64,000 bases of DNA. It comes from Maritalea myrionectae DSM 19524 (GTDB lineage Bacteria > Pseudomonadota > Alphaproteobacteria > Rhizobiales > Devosiaceae). Every line of letters begins with the position of its first letter. Position 1 is the stretch's first letter. The translations under genes and the position numbers were made by a program. Location of the stretch: contig NZ_AUHV01000002.1 in NCBI RefSeq assembly GCF_000423365.1, positions 667,270-731,269 of the forward strand, given 5' to 3'. A model generated the notes under the pieces. It did no database searches and had not been told where the DNA came from. It saw nothing but the letters and a program-made list of their open reading frames with translations. This document shows positions 5,306 to 24,950 of this stretch, piece by piece.

Positions 5306-6949
5306 ATGGCAAAAATGACCGGCGGCGAAATTTTGGTGAAATGCCTTGAAGCGCAGGAGGTGGACCGCGTGTTCTGCGTGCCGGGCGAAAGCTATTTGGC
5401 GGTGCTTGACGGGCTGCATGACAGCAATATCGACGTGGTGACCTCGCGCCATGAAGGCGGCGCGGCGATTATGGCGGAAGCGGATGGCAAGATGCTGGGC
5501 CGCCCCGGCATTTGCATGGTGACCCGCGGACCGGGCGCCACCAACGCCGCTGCGGGCGTGCATATCGCCAAGCAAGACAGCACGCCGATGATTTTATTTG
5601 TGGGTCAAATTGGCCGCGCCATGAAAGGCCGCGAGGCGTTTCAGGAAGTGGATTATCGGCAAACCTTTGGCGATTTGGCCAAATGGGTGGAAGAAATCGA
5701 CGATGCGGCGCGCATTCCCGAAGTGATTGCCCACGCCTATCACATTGCCATGTCTGGTCGCCCTGGTCCCGTGGTTTTGGCACTGCCGGAAGACATGTTG
5801 CGGGACGAAGTGGACGTGCCCGTTTGCCCCTACATCGAAGTGGCGGAGCCTGCCCCGAGCCTGAAAGCCGCGGCGCGGTTTGAAGAGCTGCTGCGCACGG
5901 CAGAGCGCCCTTTCATCGTGGCCGGTGGCTCGCGGTGGACAGAGCAATCTGTGGCGCAGTTGAAAGCCTTTGCGCATAAGCACGACATTCCGGTGGGTTG
6001 TTCATTCCGGCGGCAGCAATTGTTTGACCACACTGACAGCCACTATGCGGGCGATGTGGGCTTGGGGATCAACCCGGCGCTGAAAGAACAGATCGAGCAA
6101 TCGGATTGCCTGATTTTGCTAGGCGCTCGTTTTTCGGAAAATCCGAGCCAGAACTTTACGCTTTTGGGCATGCCCAATCCGGGCAAAACTTTGATCCATA
6201 TTCATCCCGGCGCGGAAGAATTGGGGCGGATTTACACGCCAACGCTTTCCATCAACGCCACGCCTGAATGTTTCTTTGACGCGGTGGATCATATTGATGC
6301 CCTGCCCGCAGCGGATCGCGGCAAAAAGGCCAATGAGATTTATCGCGCCTGGACGGATGCGATGCCGGAAACGCCCGGCGATGTGCAAATGGGCGGCGTG
6401 ATGACCTATTTGCGTGAAGCGCTTTCAAACGATGCCATTATGTGCAATGGCGCGGGCAATTATGCGATTTGGCTGCACCGTTTTTGGCGTTTCCAGCGCT
6501 ATGGCACCCAACTGGCCCCGACCTCCGGGTCGATGGGCTATGGCGTACCTGCCTCCATCGCCGGCAAATTGCGGCACCCGGAGCGGGATGTGATTTGCTT
6601 TGCAGGCGATGGCTGTTTCCAAATGACCGGGCAAGAATTTGCCGCCGCCGCTCAGTTTGGCGCCAACATCATTGTGTTGGTGATCGACAATGGCATTTAC
6701 GGCACCATCCGCATGCACCAGGAAAAACATTATCCAGAGCGCATTTCCGCAACGGATTTGGTGAACCCAGATTTTGCCGCATGGGCTCGCGCTATGGGCG
6801 GCCATGGTGAGACGGTTGAGCACACCGACCAGTTCCCACTCGCGTTTGAACGAGCACGGGAAAGCGGCAAGCCAGCGATTATTCATATCAAGACCTCGGC
6901 TGAGGCGATTTCACCGACGGCGACGATCTCGCAGTTGCGGGGGAAGTAG
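5306..6949 (+). CDS. thiamine-diphosphate-dependent enzyme of the acetolactate synthase type
   Basis: A 547-residue enzyme with the three-domain layout of acetolactate synthase and related 2-oxoacid decarboxylases: N-terminal pyrimidine-binding domain with the catalytic Glu50 (SRHEGGAAIMAEA), a middle domain, and a C-terminal diphosphate-binding domain with GDG at about 433 followed by DNGIYG about 28 residues later, the Mg/ThDP motif. It is larger and different in context from IlvB: no IlvH-like regulatory subunit follows and it is last in the gcdH operon. Substrate unknown. Candidates are a 2-oxoacid or acyl-CoA linked to lysine/glutarate breakdown. The ATG lies 13 bases after the CoA-transferase stop. 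Confidence 0.88.
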   Translation: MAKMTGGEILVKCLEAQEVDRVFCVPGESYLAVLDGLHDSNIDVVTSRHEGGAAIMAEADGKMLGRPGICMVTRGPGATNAAAGVHIAKQDSTPMILFVGQIGRAMKGREAFQEVDYRQTFGDLAKWVEEIDDAARIPEVIAHAYHIAMSGRPGPVVLALPEDMLRDEVDVPVCPYIEVAEPAPSLKAAARFEELLRTAERPFIVAGGSRWTEQSVAQLKAFAHKHDIPVGCSFRRQQLFDHTDSHYAGDVGLGINPALKEQIEQSDCLILLGARFSENPSQNFTLLGMPNPGKTLIHIHPGAEELGRIYTPTLSINATPECFFDAVDHIDALPAADRGKKANEIYRAWTDAMPETPGDVQMGGVMTYLREALSNDAIMCNGAGNYAIWLHRFWRFQRYGTQLAPTSGSMGYGVPASIAGKLRHPERDVICFAGDGCFQMTGQEFAAAAQFGANIIVLVIDNGIYGTIRMHQEKHYPERISATDLVNPDFAAWARAMGGHGETVEHTDQFPLAFERARESGKPAIIHIKTSAEAISPTATISQLRGK

Positions 6950-6956
6950 TTGGTTC

Positions 6957-7037
6957 TCGCTCACGGTTGAGCGGCGCTGCGCGCCTAACCTCCGCGAGGG
7001 CGAAACCTAAAGGTTTCGGGCTGGGCCGCCCCAGCCC
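6957..7037 (+). repeat. diverged copy of the multi-hairpin repeat
   Basis: Starts 8 bases after the ThDP-enzyme stop. Hairpin 1 is CGCTCA-CGGT-TGAGCG, identical to the arrays at 22.5 and 24.6 kb. Hairpin 2 is GGCGC-TGC-GCGCC, where other copies have GGCACC/GGTGCC. Hairpin 3 is CGAAACC-TAAA-GGTTTCG (7001-7018), wholly different in sequence from the third stem elsewhere but again perfect. A fourth, GGGCTGGG-CCGC-CCCAGCCC, spans 7018-7037. It is probably part of the 3' untranslated region and may act as terminator or RNA-stabilising structure. Confidence 0.7.
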
Positions 7038-7145
7038 TGTTTAGGTGCCAAAAGTGGAAGGTCGCCCCTTAAGCCCTTCACCCCCATGGGGAGTGGTGCT
7101 GATTTGGACTACGCCCGTTGTCCCCGCGCTGCTGCCCGGGCAAAC

Positions 7146-9932: not shown

Positions 9933-10027
9933 TTACTTGACTTACCCATTACATTCTTTTGCAGACCATTTGTTGTTAGCAATGTTAAACATTGACGCCA
10001 AGCCACAATTGGCATTAGATCACATAA

Positions 10028-10094
10028 TTCGGTGGTCATTTGGCCGGTCTGCTTGCAGCCACCTTGGGAACTTCCCTAAATCAACTTGCTAAGG
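10028..10094 (+). promoter_or_regulatory. SAM-II-type riboswitch upstream of metZ
   Basis: P1 stem GGTGG (10031-10035) pairs with CCACC (10059-10063). The loop carries the conserved CATTTGGCCGG and TGCTTGCAG blocks, and TAAA and GCTAA follow at 10077-10080 and 10088-10092, the 3' strand of the SAM-II pseudoknot. Known SAM-II RNAs precede metA/metZ/metX genes in alphaproteobacteria and shut them off when SAM is bound. Here a short extra stem (GGGA-ACT-TCCC, 10066-10076) is inserted before the TAAA block. Recognition is by memory of the consensus; no covariance-model search was possible. Confidence 0.78.
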
Positions 10095-10105
10095 CGACCG
10101 CGTAT

Positions 10106-21876: not shown

Positions 21877-22452
21877 ATGGCGTGGACAGACGAGCGCGTT
21901 GCGATTTTGAAAAAACTCTGGATGGAAGGCTTGAGCGCAAGCCAGATCGCGGCAGAGCTTGGCGAAGGGGTGACCCGCAATGCGGTGATCGGCAAAGTAC
22001 ACCGGTTGAAACTTTCTGGCCGGGCAAAGCCTGCTTCTTCAGCACCACGTGCGCGTAAACCGCGGGCAACAGCCGCGAGTGCGCCAAGGCGACCGAGTGG
22101 CAGCGCCTCGAGCACTACAGCACGCAGCGCGGGCAGCCGCCCAGCCGCAGCATCCGCACCGCGCCGTTCCAGCGGCGGCCCTGCTGTTGCCGGCAACACA
22201 GCGTTGAAAATGAGTGCCGATACAGAAGCCGAGCAATCATTTGAATTAAATGCTGAATCTGAGATTTTCATTCCAGAGGCCGATCGCATTGGCTTGATGG
22301 AACTGAATGAGCACACATGTAAGTGGCCAATTGGTGACCCTGTTTCTGAAGACTTCCACTTTTGTGGTCGGCACAGCGATGAAGGCAAGCCTTATTGCGA
22401 GTTCCACTCCAAGCGGGCTTATCACTCCCTTGATCGGCGCAAGAAAAGCTAG
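21877..22452 (+). CDS. gcrA: GcrA cell cycle regulator
   Basis: 191 residues. The N-terminal DNA-binding segment AWTDERVAILKKLWMEGLSASQIAAELGEGVTRNAVIGKVHRLKLS is the hallmark of GcrA. A Pro/Ala/Ser/Arg-rich linker (about 50-110) is followed by the C-terminal sigma-70-interacting domain (CKWPIGDPVSEDFHFCGRHSDEGKPYCEFHSKRAYH) with paired Cys. GcrA binds RNA polymerase sigma-70 and activates promoters carrying methylated GANTC sites, coupling replication to transcription. A TGGAGG ribosome site precedes the ATG. Its presence points firmly to alphaproteobacteria. Confidence 0.97.
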   Translation: MAWTDERVAILKKLWMEGLSASQIAAELGEGVTRNAVIGKVHRLKLSGRAKPASSAPRARKPRATAASAPRRPSGSASSTTARSAGSRPAAASAPRRSSGGPAVAGNTALKMSADTEAEQSFELNAESEIFIPEADRIGLMELNEHTCKWPIGDPVSEDFHFCGRHSDEGKPYCEFHSKRAYHSLDRRKKS

Positions 22453-22471
22453 AGATATATGACTTAAAATC

Positions 22472-22496
22472 GGGTCGCTTTGTGCGGCCCTTTTTT
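22472..22496 (+). terminator. intrinsic terminator of gcrA
   Basis: GGGTCGC (22472-22478) pairs with GCGGCCC (22484-22490) across loop TTTGT, followed by six T. It starts 20 bases after the gcrA stop. Confidence 0.85.
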
Positions 22497-22504
22497 GGAG
22501 TTTT

Positions 22505-22785
22505 TTCGCTCGCGGTTGGGGTGTTTGTTTTCGCTCACGGTTGAGCGGCACCTTCCGGTGCCTAACCTGCGCGGGCGCGGCGCAAAAGTGCGCCGGGGTC
22601 CTCGCGGCGCTCGTCCGTCTTTTCCATTGCGGCGGCAATTTTGTTTTCGCTCGCGGTTGAGCGGCACCTCTCGGTGCCTAACCTGCGCGGGCGCGGCGCA
22701 AAAGTGCGCCGGGGTCCTCGCGGTGCTCGTCCGTCTTTTCCCATTGTTGTGTCAATGTGCTTTTCGCTTGCGGGTGGGTAGCGCC
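22505..22785 (+). repeat. tandem array of the multi-hairpin repeat (two full, two partial units)
   Basis: Full units begin at CGCTCA 22532 and CGCTCG 22648; partial ones begin at 22507 and 22765, giving a period of 116-117. Each full unit folds as hairpin 1 (CGCTC[AG]-CGGT-TGAGCG), hairpin 2 (GGCACC-NNNN-GGTGCC with loops TTCC and TCTC), hairpin 3 (CGGCGC-AAAAGT-GCGCCG) and a weaker hairpin 4 (ATTGC-GGCG-GCAAT in the first, CATTG/CAATG in the second). A conserved unpaired box GTCCTCGCGG-Y-GCTCGTCCG lies between hairpins 3 and 4. It fills the 384-bp gap between gcrA and the convergent LysR gene. Confidence 0.85.
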
Positions 22786-22836
22786 ACGTTTCATGGGGGC
22801 GGTGGTTTGTTGTGTTCGCGCGCAGCCTTTTCCCTC

Positions 22837-23757
22837 TTAAGTAAAGGAAATATGGCGGTCCCAAGCTGGTTCGGGCGAGAGTTCTTCGGCTATAAAGTCA
22901 ATCAGCGACCGCACGCGACGAGGTATATTGCGGTTTTGGGCGAAAAGGGCGTAGGCCGCATAGTCTGACCATTCATGATCGGCAAAAAGCGGCACAAGTG
23001 TGCCCGACGCGATGGCTTGATAGGTGATGAAGGTAGGCTCAAGCACCACCCCAAGCCCTTTTTCCGCTGCCATGCACAGCATATCACCATTGTTGACGGC
23101 CATGCGGCTGCCGAGCTTGACGACACCACTGGTGCCGTCGGGACGGGTGAAGGGCCATGTGAGGTGGTTGCGGGTGGAGCGATAGGTCAAGATCGGAAGT
23201 TCAGCCAGATCTTCCGGTTTTTCCGGCTGCCCATATGCTGCCAAAAGCGCAGGAGCGGCACAAGGCACCCGGCGAATGGTGGTCAGCCGCTTTGCGATCA
23301 GACCGCTATCGGACAATTGGCCAATTCTGATGGTGAGGTCGAACCCTTCACCAATCAAATCCACCCGCCGATCATTGAGATCAAGATCAATATTCACCTC
23401 AGGATGCTGGACCATAAAATCCAACAGGATGGGGCCCAGATGCTGGGTTGAAAATGTGAGGGGCGCGGCCATGCGAATGCGGCCCATCAGCTTTTTTGCA
23501 CCTTGGGAAACGGCACTTTCGGCTTCTTGAATATCGTCGAGTATGCGGCGGCAGCGCCAGAGATAATCCTCGCCCGCAGTGGTTAGATTTATACTTCTTG
23601 TCGAGCGCAAAATCAGGGTTGTGCCGAGCCGCCGCTCCAGCTCCTTCAAGCGTCGACTGACCGCCGACAAGGCAATGTTCAATGTGCCCGCGGCACCGGT
23701 CAGGCTCTGCGCATCTGTGACAGCCACGAAGGTGCGCATCTCATCGAGATGACTCAC
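22837..23757 (-). CDS. LysR-family transcriptional regulator
   Basis: 306 residues from a GTG at 23757 that has a TTGGAG site 6 bases upstream; the frame extends to a TTG at 23769 lying inside that ribosome site. The N-terminal winged helix-turn-helix is clear (FVAVTDAQSLTGAAGTLNIALSAVSRRLKELERRLGTTLILRSTRSINLTTAG), followed by a LysR substrate-binding domain of the two-lobe type. It is divergent from the azoreductase gene over a 125-bp AT-rich gap, the usual layout when a LysR protein controls its neighbour, so it probably senses a quinone, aromatic or electrophile. That role is an inference. Confidence 0.9.
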   Translation of the reverse strand: MSHLDEMRTFVAVTDAQSLTGAAGTLNIALSAVSRRLKELERRLGTTLILRSTRSINLTTAGEDYLWRCRRILDDIQEAESAVSQGAKKLMGRIRMAAPLTFSTQHLGPILLDFMVQHPEVNIDLDLNDRRVDLIGEGFDLTIRIGQLSDSGLIAKRLTTIRRVPCAAPALLAAYGQPEKPEDLAELPILTYRSTRNHLTWPFTRPDGTSGVVKLGSRMAVNNGDMLCMAAEKGLGVVLEPTFITYQAIASGTLVPLFADHEWSDYAAYALFAQNRNIPRRVRSLIDFIAEELSPEPAWDRHISFT

Positions 23758-23882
23758 ATTATTCTCCAAATTGCAATAATATCTTGCTATCTAATGCTAT
23801 TATTCTGGATATGTAAAGCTGCTATTGCTTCCGCTCGACACCATGTGGGCCAAGCCCCGAATACAATTGGAAGGAATATGGC

Positions 23883-24506
23883 ATGAGCGAAAAAATGAAA
23901 ATTTTGCAGGTGAATAGCAGCGTGATGGGAGAGGCCAGCCAATCCGGCCGCCTGGCCACGCGGATCATTGATCAGCTGGCTGATCAAGGCCTTGTTGACC
24001 AGGTGGTGCTGCGCGATCTGAACAACAGCCTGCCCCTTATTACGCAGGAATGGGTTATGGCCAACAATAGTCAGGAAGAAGATCGGACGGCTGCGCAGCA
24101 AGAGGTGCTGGCCCTATCCGATCAATTGATCGCTGAAATTGAAGAGGCGGATATATTGGTCATCGGGGTGGCGCTCTATAATTTTGCCGTGTCGGCCAGT
24201 CTGAAAGCCTGGATTGATTTGATCTGCCGCGCGCGTAAAACATTCGTTTACAGCGAAGATGGGCCAAAAGGACTGTTGAAAGGGAAGAAGGCGATTGTGA
24301 CTTTTGCATCGGGCGGCACGCCGTTTGGCTCTGACATCGATTTTGCCAGCGACTTTTTGCGCCATATTCTTGGGTTCATCGGGATTGATGATGTGGAATT
24401 TGTTGCTGCTGATCAGCACTTTATGGCCGAAAACGCGCTAGAGAATGCGGACCGCTCTGCGGACGATCTGGTGGCGCGAATTAGTGCATCCGAGAAAGCG
24501 GCATAA
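23883..24506 (+). CDS. azoR: FMN-dependent NADH-azoreductase (quinone reductase type)
   Basis: 207 residues with a flavodoxin-like fold: KILQVNSSVMGEASQSGRLATRI at the phosphate-binding loop of FMN, ADILVIGVALYNFAVSASLKAWIDLICRARKTFVYSEDGPKGLLKGKKA, and the FASGGTPFGSDIDFASDFLRHILGFIG segment typical of AzoR. It reduces quinones and azo compounds by two-electron transfer and protects against thiol stress. Transcribed away from a LysR regulator that probably controls it. Confidence 0.92.
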   Translation: MSEKMKILQVNSSVMGEASQSGRLATRIIDQLADQGLVDQVVLRDLNNSLPLITQEWVMANNSQEEDRTAAQQEVLALSDQLIAEIEEADILVIGVALYNFAVSASLKAWIDLICRARKTFVYSEDGPKGLLKGKKAIVTFASGGTPFGSDIDFASDFLRHILGFIGIDDVEFVAADQHFMAENALENADRSADDLVARISASEKAA

Positions 24507-24536
24507 GGCTGCAAAACCGCTGCGGTTTGAACAGAA

Positions 24537-24560
24537 ACCGGGTCGCCCTCGGGCGGTCCG
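24537..24560 (+). terminator. strong hairpin after azoR
   Basis: CCGGGTCGCC pairs with GGCGGTCCGG over 10 base pairs with loop CTCG (approximate positions 24537-24560), 30 bases after the azoR stop. No direct T-tract follows, so termination is possible but not certain; it directly precedes the hairpin-repeat array. Confidence 0.5.
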
Positions 24561-24591
24561 GGTTCATCGGGTAGCTCATTTTGAGTTTTAT

Positions 24592-24925
24592 TTCGCTCAC
24601 GGCTGAGCGGCACCTTGCGGTGCCTAGCCTGCGCGGGCGCGCGCGAAAAGTCGCGCGGGGTCCTCGCGGCGCTCGTCCGTCTTTTTCCATTGCCGGGGCA
24701 ATGTTCTTTTCGCTCACGGGTGAGCGGCACCTCACGGTGCCTAGCCTGCGCGGGCGCGCGCGAAAAGTCGCGCGGGGTCCTCGCGGCGCTCGTCCGTCTT
24801 TTTCCATTGCCGGGGCAATGTTCTTTTCGCTCACGGTTGAGCGGCACCTAACGGTGCCTAGCCTGCGCGGGCGCGCGCGAAAAGTCGCGCGGGGTCCTCG
24901 CGGCGCTCGTCCGTCTTTTTCCATT
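24592..24925 (+). repeat. three-unit 117-bp tandem array of the multi-hairpin repeat
   Basis: Units begin at CGCTCA 24594, 24711 and 24828, an exact 117-base period. Each has hairpin 1 CGCTCA-CGG[CGT]-TGAGCG, hairpin 2 GGCACC-NNNN-GGTGCC with loops TTGC, TCAC and TAAC, hairpin 3 CGCGCGA-AAAG-TCGCGCG and, in the first two, hairpin 4 CATTGCC-GG-GGCAATG. Differences between units are almost confined to loop bases. Because 117 is divisible by three, long frames stay open on both strands; these are not taken as genes. The array lies between azoR and the convergent queF. Confidence 0.9.
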
Positions 24926-24950
24926 TGGGCGCTGCGGATGGGTTGTGTGG

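Follow-up and report, generated by a model that had tools for sequence, protein, structure and literature searches.

What are the rows of perfect hairpins that follow three genes in a 64,000-nucleotide stretch (the window) of the Maritalea myrionectae DSM 19524 genome? Our study demonstrated a repeat family whose units share a constant sequence frame around covarying stems, prefer gene ends, form tandem arrays, and are present, absent or oppositely oriented at orthologous sites. The units are best read as non-coding mosaic palindromic gene-end repeats, akin to REP/BIME, CIR and RIME, that lack defining features of REP/RAYT and of CIR for which we tested. The window lies on contig C1 of the 3.54 Mb source genome (G000, contigs C1-C5); its relatives include two sister species (G001 and G005) and the more distant G002 and G003. 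It contains six units at three loci; every unit is on the + strand and each locus 3' of a + strand gene, as the initial annotation had stated and as six unit coordinates and the gene calls confirm. The stems given there for hairpin 2 (H2; GGCACC and GGCGC) and hairpin 3 (H3; CGGCGC, CGCGCGA and CGAAACC) are also found as described, as are the five H2 loops listed below. The three preceding genes, encoding a thiamine pyrophosphate (TPP) enzyme, GcrA and a flavodoxin-fold/flavin mononucleotide (FMN) reductase, are mutually unrelated. The core unit at 6.96 kb begins 6 bases past the final base of the TPP enzyme gene, and the arrays have a tandem period of 116-117 bases.

6958, 22532, 22648, 24594, 24711 and 24828, + strand: unit starts (first C of CGCTCA)
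5306..6949, + strand: TPP enzyme gene, 5' of the 6.96 kb unit
6955..7021, + strand: core unit at 6.96 kb, with the CGCTCACGG frame, H2 GGCGC/GCGCC, CCTCCGCGAGGGCG and H3 CGAAACC-TAAA-GGTTTCG
7018..7049, + strand: tail B, hairpin GGGCTGGG/CCCAGCCC plus TTTAGGTGCC (partly by eye)
21877..22452, + strand: gcrA, 5' of the 22.5 kb array
22472..22490, + strand: terminator-like stem of gcrA, then TTTTTT; the repeats begin directly behind
22501..22523, + strand: apparently decayed unit piece CGCTCGCGGTTGGGG at 22.5 kb (by eye)
22525..22640, + strand: gcrA array unit 1, core 22529-22598, H2 loop TTCC, H3 CGGCGCA-AAAG-TGCGCCG, tail A with GTCCTCGC..GCTCGTCC
22641..22757, + strand: gcrA array unit 2, core 22645-22714, H2 loop TCTC
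22758..22790, + strand: apparently decayed start of a third gcrA array unit, TTTTCGCTTGCGG (by eye)
23883..24506, + strand: flavodoxin-fold/FMN reductase gene, 5' of the 24.6 kb array
24587..24703, + strand: 24.6 kb array unit 1, core 24591-24660, H2 loop TTGC, H3 CGCGCGA-AAAG-TCGCGCG
24688..24703, + strand: last hairpin of 24.6 kb unit 1, CATTGC/GCAATG, then the T tract of unit 2; terminator-like, recurring at 24805-24820
24704..24820, + strand: 24.6 kb array unit 2, core 24708-24777, H2 loop TCAC
24821..24935, + strand: 24.6 kb array unit 3, core 24825-24894, H2 loop TAAC

Copies within the genome and across Alphaproteobacteria

Genome-wide, a model built from the Maritalea copies (R1) found nine copies with strong scores (E ≤1.4e-16): the six of the window, two on C4 and one on C2. 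A class model (R2) added three more, at C4:312392, C4:329564 and C5:123291, each with a weak R1 score. All stem cells of the nine strong copies (159/159) form standard pairs; both sides have changed in 9 of the 18 pairs, amounting to 32 cells against 9.6 (standard deviation, sd, 2.5) in shuffles that ignore the tree, and moving the 3' partners by one to three columns lowers pairing to 28-43%. H3 exists in three alleles among these copies, all of them paired, and whole stems differ without intermediates. The compensatory changes and freely varying loops of the initial annotation are thus borne out, although the structure was read from the same nine copies, so that their pairing count is a description and the wider family provides the better test. 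Fold z-scores of the five units tried ranged from -2.4 to -4.0.

No known form could be put to the repeats earlier, and this still holds: Rfam at its gathering thresholds returned no family for them in the window, where it matched only a tRNA and a SAM-alpha riboswitch; with the E limit relaxed to 1, seven repeat loci gave four matches, each under its gathering score. The riboswitch, at 10022-10099 on the + strand, scores 36.5 bits against an Rfam threshold of 36. The 22.5 kb array had no blastn match in plasmids and phages.

R1 matched 13 of 41 related genomes at E ≤0.001, our own included, with 13 matches in G035, a member of another family. The frame CTCACGG ... CCT[G/C]CG surrounds variable hairpins in the 47 R1 matches that were read. 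The exact frame pattern was found in 29 of the 297 genomes of the order (again counting our own) and its reverse in none, two of the matches looking like coding sequence, so the copies extend well beyond one strain. Exact matches number at most 33 per genome in this set (24 in G531, 18 in G284), though the pattern undercounts. Because it demanded the frame letters, their constancy among its matches is no evidence; a less biased picture of the frame comes from the R1 matches, though R1 also prefers its own letters. With one genome per species, the pattern scan gave at least 119 stretches, and paired H2 and H3 in at least 69 units at no fewer than 62 loci; two loci (L174 and L193) were dropped as coding-like, leaving 67 units in 60 loci.

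Of the 80 titled loci among the matches listed, 41 pass the hairpin check. By title, 35 of these 41 are alphaproteobacteria, six are an untyped bacterium or proteobacteria and none belongs to another class; alphaproteobacterial membership was looked up for Henriciella, Robiginitomaculum and Cohaesibacter, and some other titles were assigned by our own judgement. Contig titles with the frame include Rhodospirillales, Rhizobiaceae, Cohaesibacter, Devosia and Henriciella. A class pattern scan matched 13 of 387 genomes, with H2 paired by eye in four (G000, G048, G163 and G284), and a class-wide covariance model search matched 7 of the 387, our own included; that search scored just 13 candidates per genome, so its zeros carry little weight. 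Units are about 100-117 bases long, and tandem periods in several genomes are mostly 96-117 bases.

A conserved outer stem with alternative pairings

The initial annotation held that hairpin 1 (CGCTCA/TGAGCG) is kept among copies. This is true of the genus and of a few other members, for example in G035; across the class, a longer stem, CGC-T-CA-c-GG / CC-TG-c-GCG, takes its place and encloses H2. Many members have TATT, GTTC, AATT, GCAC or the like instead of TGAGC, and CGCTCACGG then pairs with CCTGCGCG past H2. The window units can likewise form the longer outer stem, and hairpin 1 is an alternative pairing in members that carry TGAGC in the bulge.

The outer stem covaries. In alignment A3 (44 rows: 39 of the 67 retained units and five of G000), the covarying pairs link CGC of CGCTCACGG to GCG of CCTGCGCG. 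Column pair 6-62 has 30 rows with G-C, 13 with U-A and one unpaired; 5-63 has 36 with C-G, four with G-C, one with U-G and three unpaired; and 15-55 has 35 with C-G, six with U-A and three unpaired. The 5' partners of 6-62 and 5-63 had been left free by the search pattern. Two larger alignments, A4 (59 distinct rows) and A5 (95 rows), are both model-fitted and biased towards the model; their first two outer pairs are G-C 30/U-A 28 and C-G 51/G-C 8 in A4, and G-C 75/U-A 18 and C-G 76/G-C 8 in A5, with covariation scores of 0.462 versus 0.109 shuffled and 0.389 versus 0.101, respectively, the shuffles again ignoring the tree. One frame pair, C with G or C, fails more often, being unpaired in 12/59 (A4) and 8/95 (A5) rows, in copies with CCTCCG. 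The H2 pairs are 70-85% paired and align poorly owing to register shifts. Of five units folded, three (one each from 22.5 kb, 24.6 kb and C4) have a minimum-energy structure in which ACGG..GAGC pairs with GCTCG..CCGT of tail A. This is a third pairing, so that the unit head has several possible partners.

Placement and turnover at gene ends

Placement was examined in 76 arrays, with genes called by a simple script of our own. The input included 70 of the at least 119 pattern loci, picked as member-like by eye; 44 of 123 arrays were set aside because they lay at edges or inside called genes, and three of the remaining 79 were duplicates. Thirty-four of the 76 lie between convergent genes, compared with 23 of 152 element-free intergenic regions of at least 100 bases (Fisher p 3e-6), and seven lie between divergent genes, compared with 47 of the 152 (p 2e-4). 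Those in a tandem setting comprise 11 sense, 21 antisense and three mixed arrays (binomial p 0.11 for sense versus antisense). The convergent surplus, the divergent deficit and the 11:21 split together show that gene ends are favoured and divergent regions avoided, without a preference for the sense strand. The uniform sense orientation of the initial annotation accordingly holds in the window alone, and we reject it as a rule of the family on the tandem arrays, convergent regions being unable to reveal orientation.

A T tract precedes the frame, with T at a frequency of 0.56-0.89 at positions -7 to -1, the last two of which fall within the model. Among the units with distinct full-length flanks (147 of 156), this tract is directly preceded by the end of a stem in 43 of 128 first or single units, where mononucleotide shuffles give 19.7 (sd 3.5), and in 9 of 19 later array units, where they give 5.6 (sd 1.8).

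Orthologous sites in the genus reveal both persistence and gain, loss or inversion. Behind gcrA, units occur in G000, G001 and G005, with partly different hairpins and tails; in G002 and G003 a terminator is present and no unit was found within the 480 bases read. The gcrA end of G005 (L328) has its last gcrA bases and terminator duplicated, with one unit behind each copy. At the TPP enzyme gene end, G000 and G005 have a unit and G001 has none in the 300 bases read, its upstream sequence being 90% identical. This only clear empty site that we observed holds another repeat: G001 (L326) has a different palindrome, CCCCGGATCAAGTCCGGGG, more than once where the other two have the unit. In a convergent region on C4, between genes for DUF2794 and Bax1-I proteins, the repeat has one orientation in G000 and the opposite one in G005 (one unit) and G001 (two units). 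A unit is kept in three species at the end of a 2Fe-2S ferredoxin gene on C2; by eye, its H2 in G001 differs from that of G000 and G005 by one pair changed on both sides and by another changed to G-U. One stem pair of tail B is altered on both sides in G005, from G-C to T-A (read partly by eye).

Modules also combine, tails A and B both occurring with different H3. A companion repeat of similar frame-plus-hairpin make-up, TACGCGCCGCC-hairpin-CCCCGGCA with a variable inner part, is found at seven distinct places in G000, six of them 59-122 bp from a unit and three at 71 bp. Outside the window it lies at:

C2:143239-143338: companion repeat
C4:312527-312565: companion repeat
C4:329455-329493: companion repeat
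C4:404350-404388: companion repeat
C5:123131-123169: companion repeat

In some genomes (L117, L118, L146, L197 and similar loci), the sequences GGAACCACTCTAG and GATTCC..CGGAAACGCCCTAG lie on the flanks of units and resemble pieces of another repeat containing GANTC.

Affinities, origin and possible role

How do these units compare with known repeats? RIME1 of rhizobia is intergenic and palindromic and measures roughly 110-120 bp, and the repeats described here are like it in size and nature. A palindromic repeat recovered de novo at five places (CTAGAGCGGGATGAGG...) in five 50-kb stretches of Sinorhizobium meliloti pSymB, which is probably RIME1, has by eye no frame in common with our family, and R2 found nothing convincing in these 250 kb (best E 0.031) or in the whole replicon (best E 0.205).

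The CIR elements of Caulobacter and its relatives are described as intergenic, of ~110 bp, with two hairpin arms joined by a linker and a conserved GANTC at a terminal loop (PMC2229807). Our repeats share the length, the intergenic location, the alphaproteobacterial hosts and the two linked arms, but have further hairpins in the tail; GANTC is found in just 1 of the 149 distinct units, or in 17 once the following 45 bases are included. The two are set apart here by description, and they may be related in sequence; the one match in a Caulobacter metagenome-assembled genome was weak and coding-looking.

In Bradyrhizobium, Br-REP1 and Br-REP2 are reported as palindromic elements of 3' untranslated regions (3'-UTRs) with fast species turnover; Br-REP1, together with two palindromes that flank it (three stem-loops in all), lies between convergent genes where RNA reads are found, and this central palindrome has a consensus (PMC5082802). 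Both families are palindromic gene-end elements with quick turnover; they differ in sequence (CCGGAATCTCGAGATTCCGG in Br-REP) and in what is conserved, namely the central palindrome in Br-REP and the frame, around variable hairpins, in ours. REP/RAYT repeats have a GTAG/GTGG tag 5' of the palindrome and usually more than 100 copies per genome (PMC2817692). Our family resembles REP/BIME in consisting of extragenic palindromes in composite arrays, and BIME in particular in its mosaic make-up, with distinct palindromic modules in composite tandem arrays and a companion repeat close by; it differs in having the CTCACGG frame, no GTAG/GTGG tag by eye in the alignments, and the low exact-pattern counts given above, against the usual >100 of that source. 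Literature searches, including by sequence string and mostly beyond subscription journals, found no paper describing the CTCACGG frame.

We favour, with a probability of about 0.6, the view that mosaic repeats multiply in alphaproteobacterial genomes, settle at gene ends and persist there as tolerated or useful transcript-end hairpins. A unit consists of a short T tract, an arm closed by the conserved stem and carrying H2, the variable H3, and a tail with one or two more hairpins. Such units probably spread as DNA, perhaps aimed at sites with a hairpin and a T tract, such as terminators. RNA copied from a unit in either direction would end in a row of stable hairpins, which may obstruct 3' exonucleases and limit read-through from one gene into its neighbour, and for this reason the units would be tolerated or even useful; on this reading they would act at transcript 3' ends. 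Several observations weigh against this view. Copies are few (a genome has 33 exact-pattern matches at most) and the distribution is patchy (13/387 genomes by pattern, 7/387 by model). At the gcrA, ferredoxin and TPP enzyme gene ends, units persist in two or three species, which is what a conserved local function would produce. Finally, no transposase or other mover was found, Y1_Tnp being present in 0 of 6 genus genomes and 3 of 12 hosts. As to how such a mover might work, it is conceivable, though unlikely, that it recognizes the frame (a stem with a T.C mismatch and an extruded C) in single-stranded, folded DNA and targets positions beside a hairpin plus T tract, both arms being rewritten together as a unit is copied, so that G-U intermediates are skipped.

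An alternative that we consider improbable is action on the sense strand as a structured RNA, either cis-regulatory or derived from a 3'-UTR. It would account for the covarying stems, for the window copies all being sense and behind a gene, and for the ferredoxin-end H2 with its one compensated change and one G-U. It sits poorly with the 11 sense and 21 antisense tandem copies (p 0.11), the opposite orientations at one orthologous site, the unrelated genes upstream in the window, the lack of an Rfam match and the chemistry of the pairs, since selection on one RNA strand should favour G-U over A-C. Inner H3 pairs in A5 are 333 Watson-Crick, three G-U, one A-C and four other, and in A4 194, two, one and five; pooled, G-U fills 5 of 543 cells and A-C two. 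The three outer-stem pairs give 267, 4, 3 and 10 in the same order in A5, and 175, 0, 1 and 1 in A4. A register-free count (penalty 0.5) has G-U and A-C at 8 versus 8 in H2 and 6 versus 5 in H3, besides 83 H3 and 29 H2 cells with other mismatches, many of which probably arise from the finder overrunning the stem. Eleven tRNAs served as a control and had two G-U among 77 pairs, a sample too small to show a G-U shortage in the repeats. G-U thus shows no clear excess over A-C, and one-strand RNA selection is unsupported. Were both strands transcribed, as is plausible between convergent genes, this comparison would lose power, which leaves some room for RNA.

We also hold it improbable that mutation by itself made the perfect stems, template switching copying one arm from the other with no selection. 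The near-exclusive Watson-Crick pairing, with G-U about as rare as A-C, and the whole-stem differences without intermediates among three fully paired H3 alleles in nine copies would follow naturally from such copying. The outer stem, however, also covaries with its arms ~40-50 bases apart (6-62: G-C 30, U-A 13), and by eye there are single compensated changes at orthologous loci. Selection on structure, proposed in the initial annotation, is likely but unproved, as Watson-Crick-to-Watson-Crick changes could also come from copying arm from arm.

That the units are ordinary intrinsic terminators is very doubtful. A unit's last hairpin plus the T tract of the next unit is terminator-like, and the region has 8 such sites, where shuffles give 3.9 (sd 2.1); but the T tract that belongs to a unit is placed 5' of that unit's main hairpins, the gcrA units have a separate terminator ahead of them, and G002 and G003 keep a terminator there without a unit (480 bases). 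Mobilization as a REP or REPIN by a RAYT (Y1 HUH) transposase is the least probable of all: the family does resemble REP/BIME in lying at gene ends, in its palindromes and tandem arrays and in its mosaic make-up, and three of 12 hosts have Y1_Tnp, but the other nine (G531 and G284 among them) do not, the GTAG/GTGG tag is missing, and the RAYT-type Y1_Tnp (PF01797) that the initial annotation suggested looking for was found in none of the six genus genomes, so that we reject RAYT movement for the genus, barring recent RAYT loss or escape from the Pfam model.

The family stands out for a frame that stays constant while the hairpins vary with hardly any wobble, and for its low copy number across orders. 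The REP-type repeats with which we compared it keep their palindrome; here it is the frame that is kept, while the palindromes vary with few wobble pairs, and this in several alphaproteobacterial orders. As a natural series, they can be used to ask which of two processes, selection on folding or templated mutation, produces the compensatory changes of such repeats, and to look for the agent that moves repeats where no RAYT is detectable in the genome.

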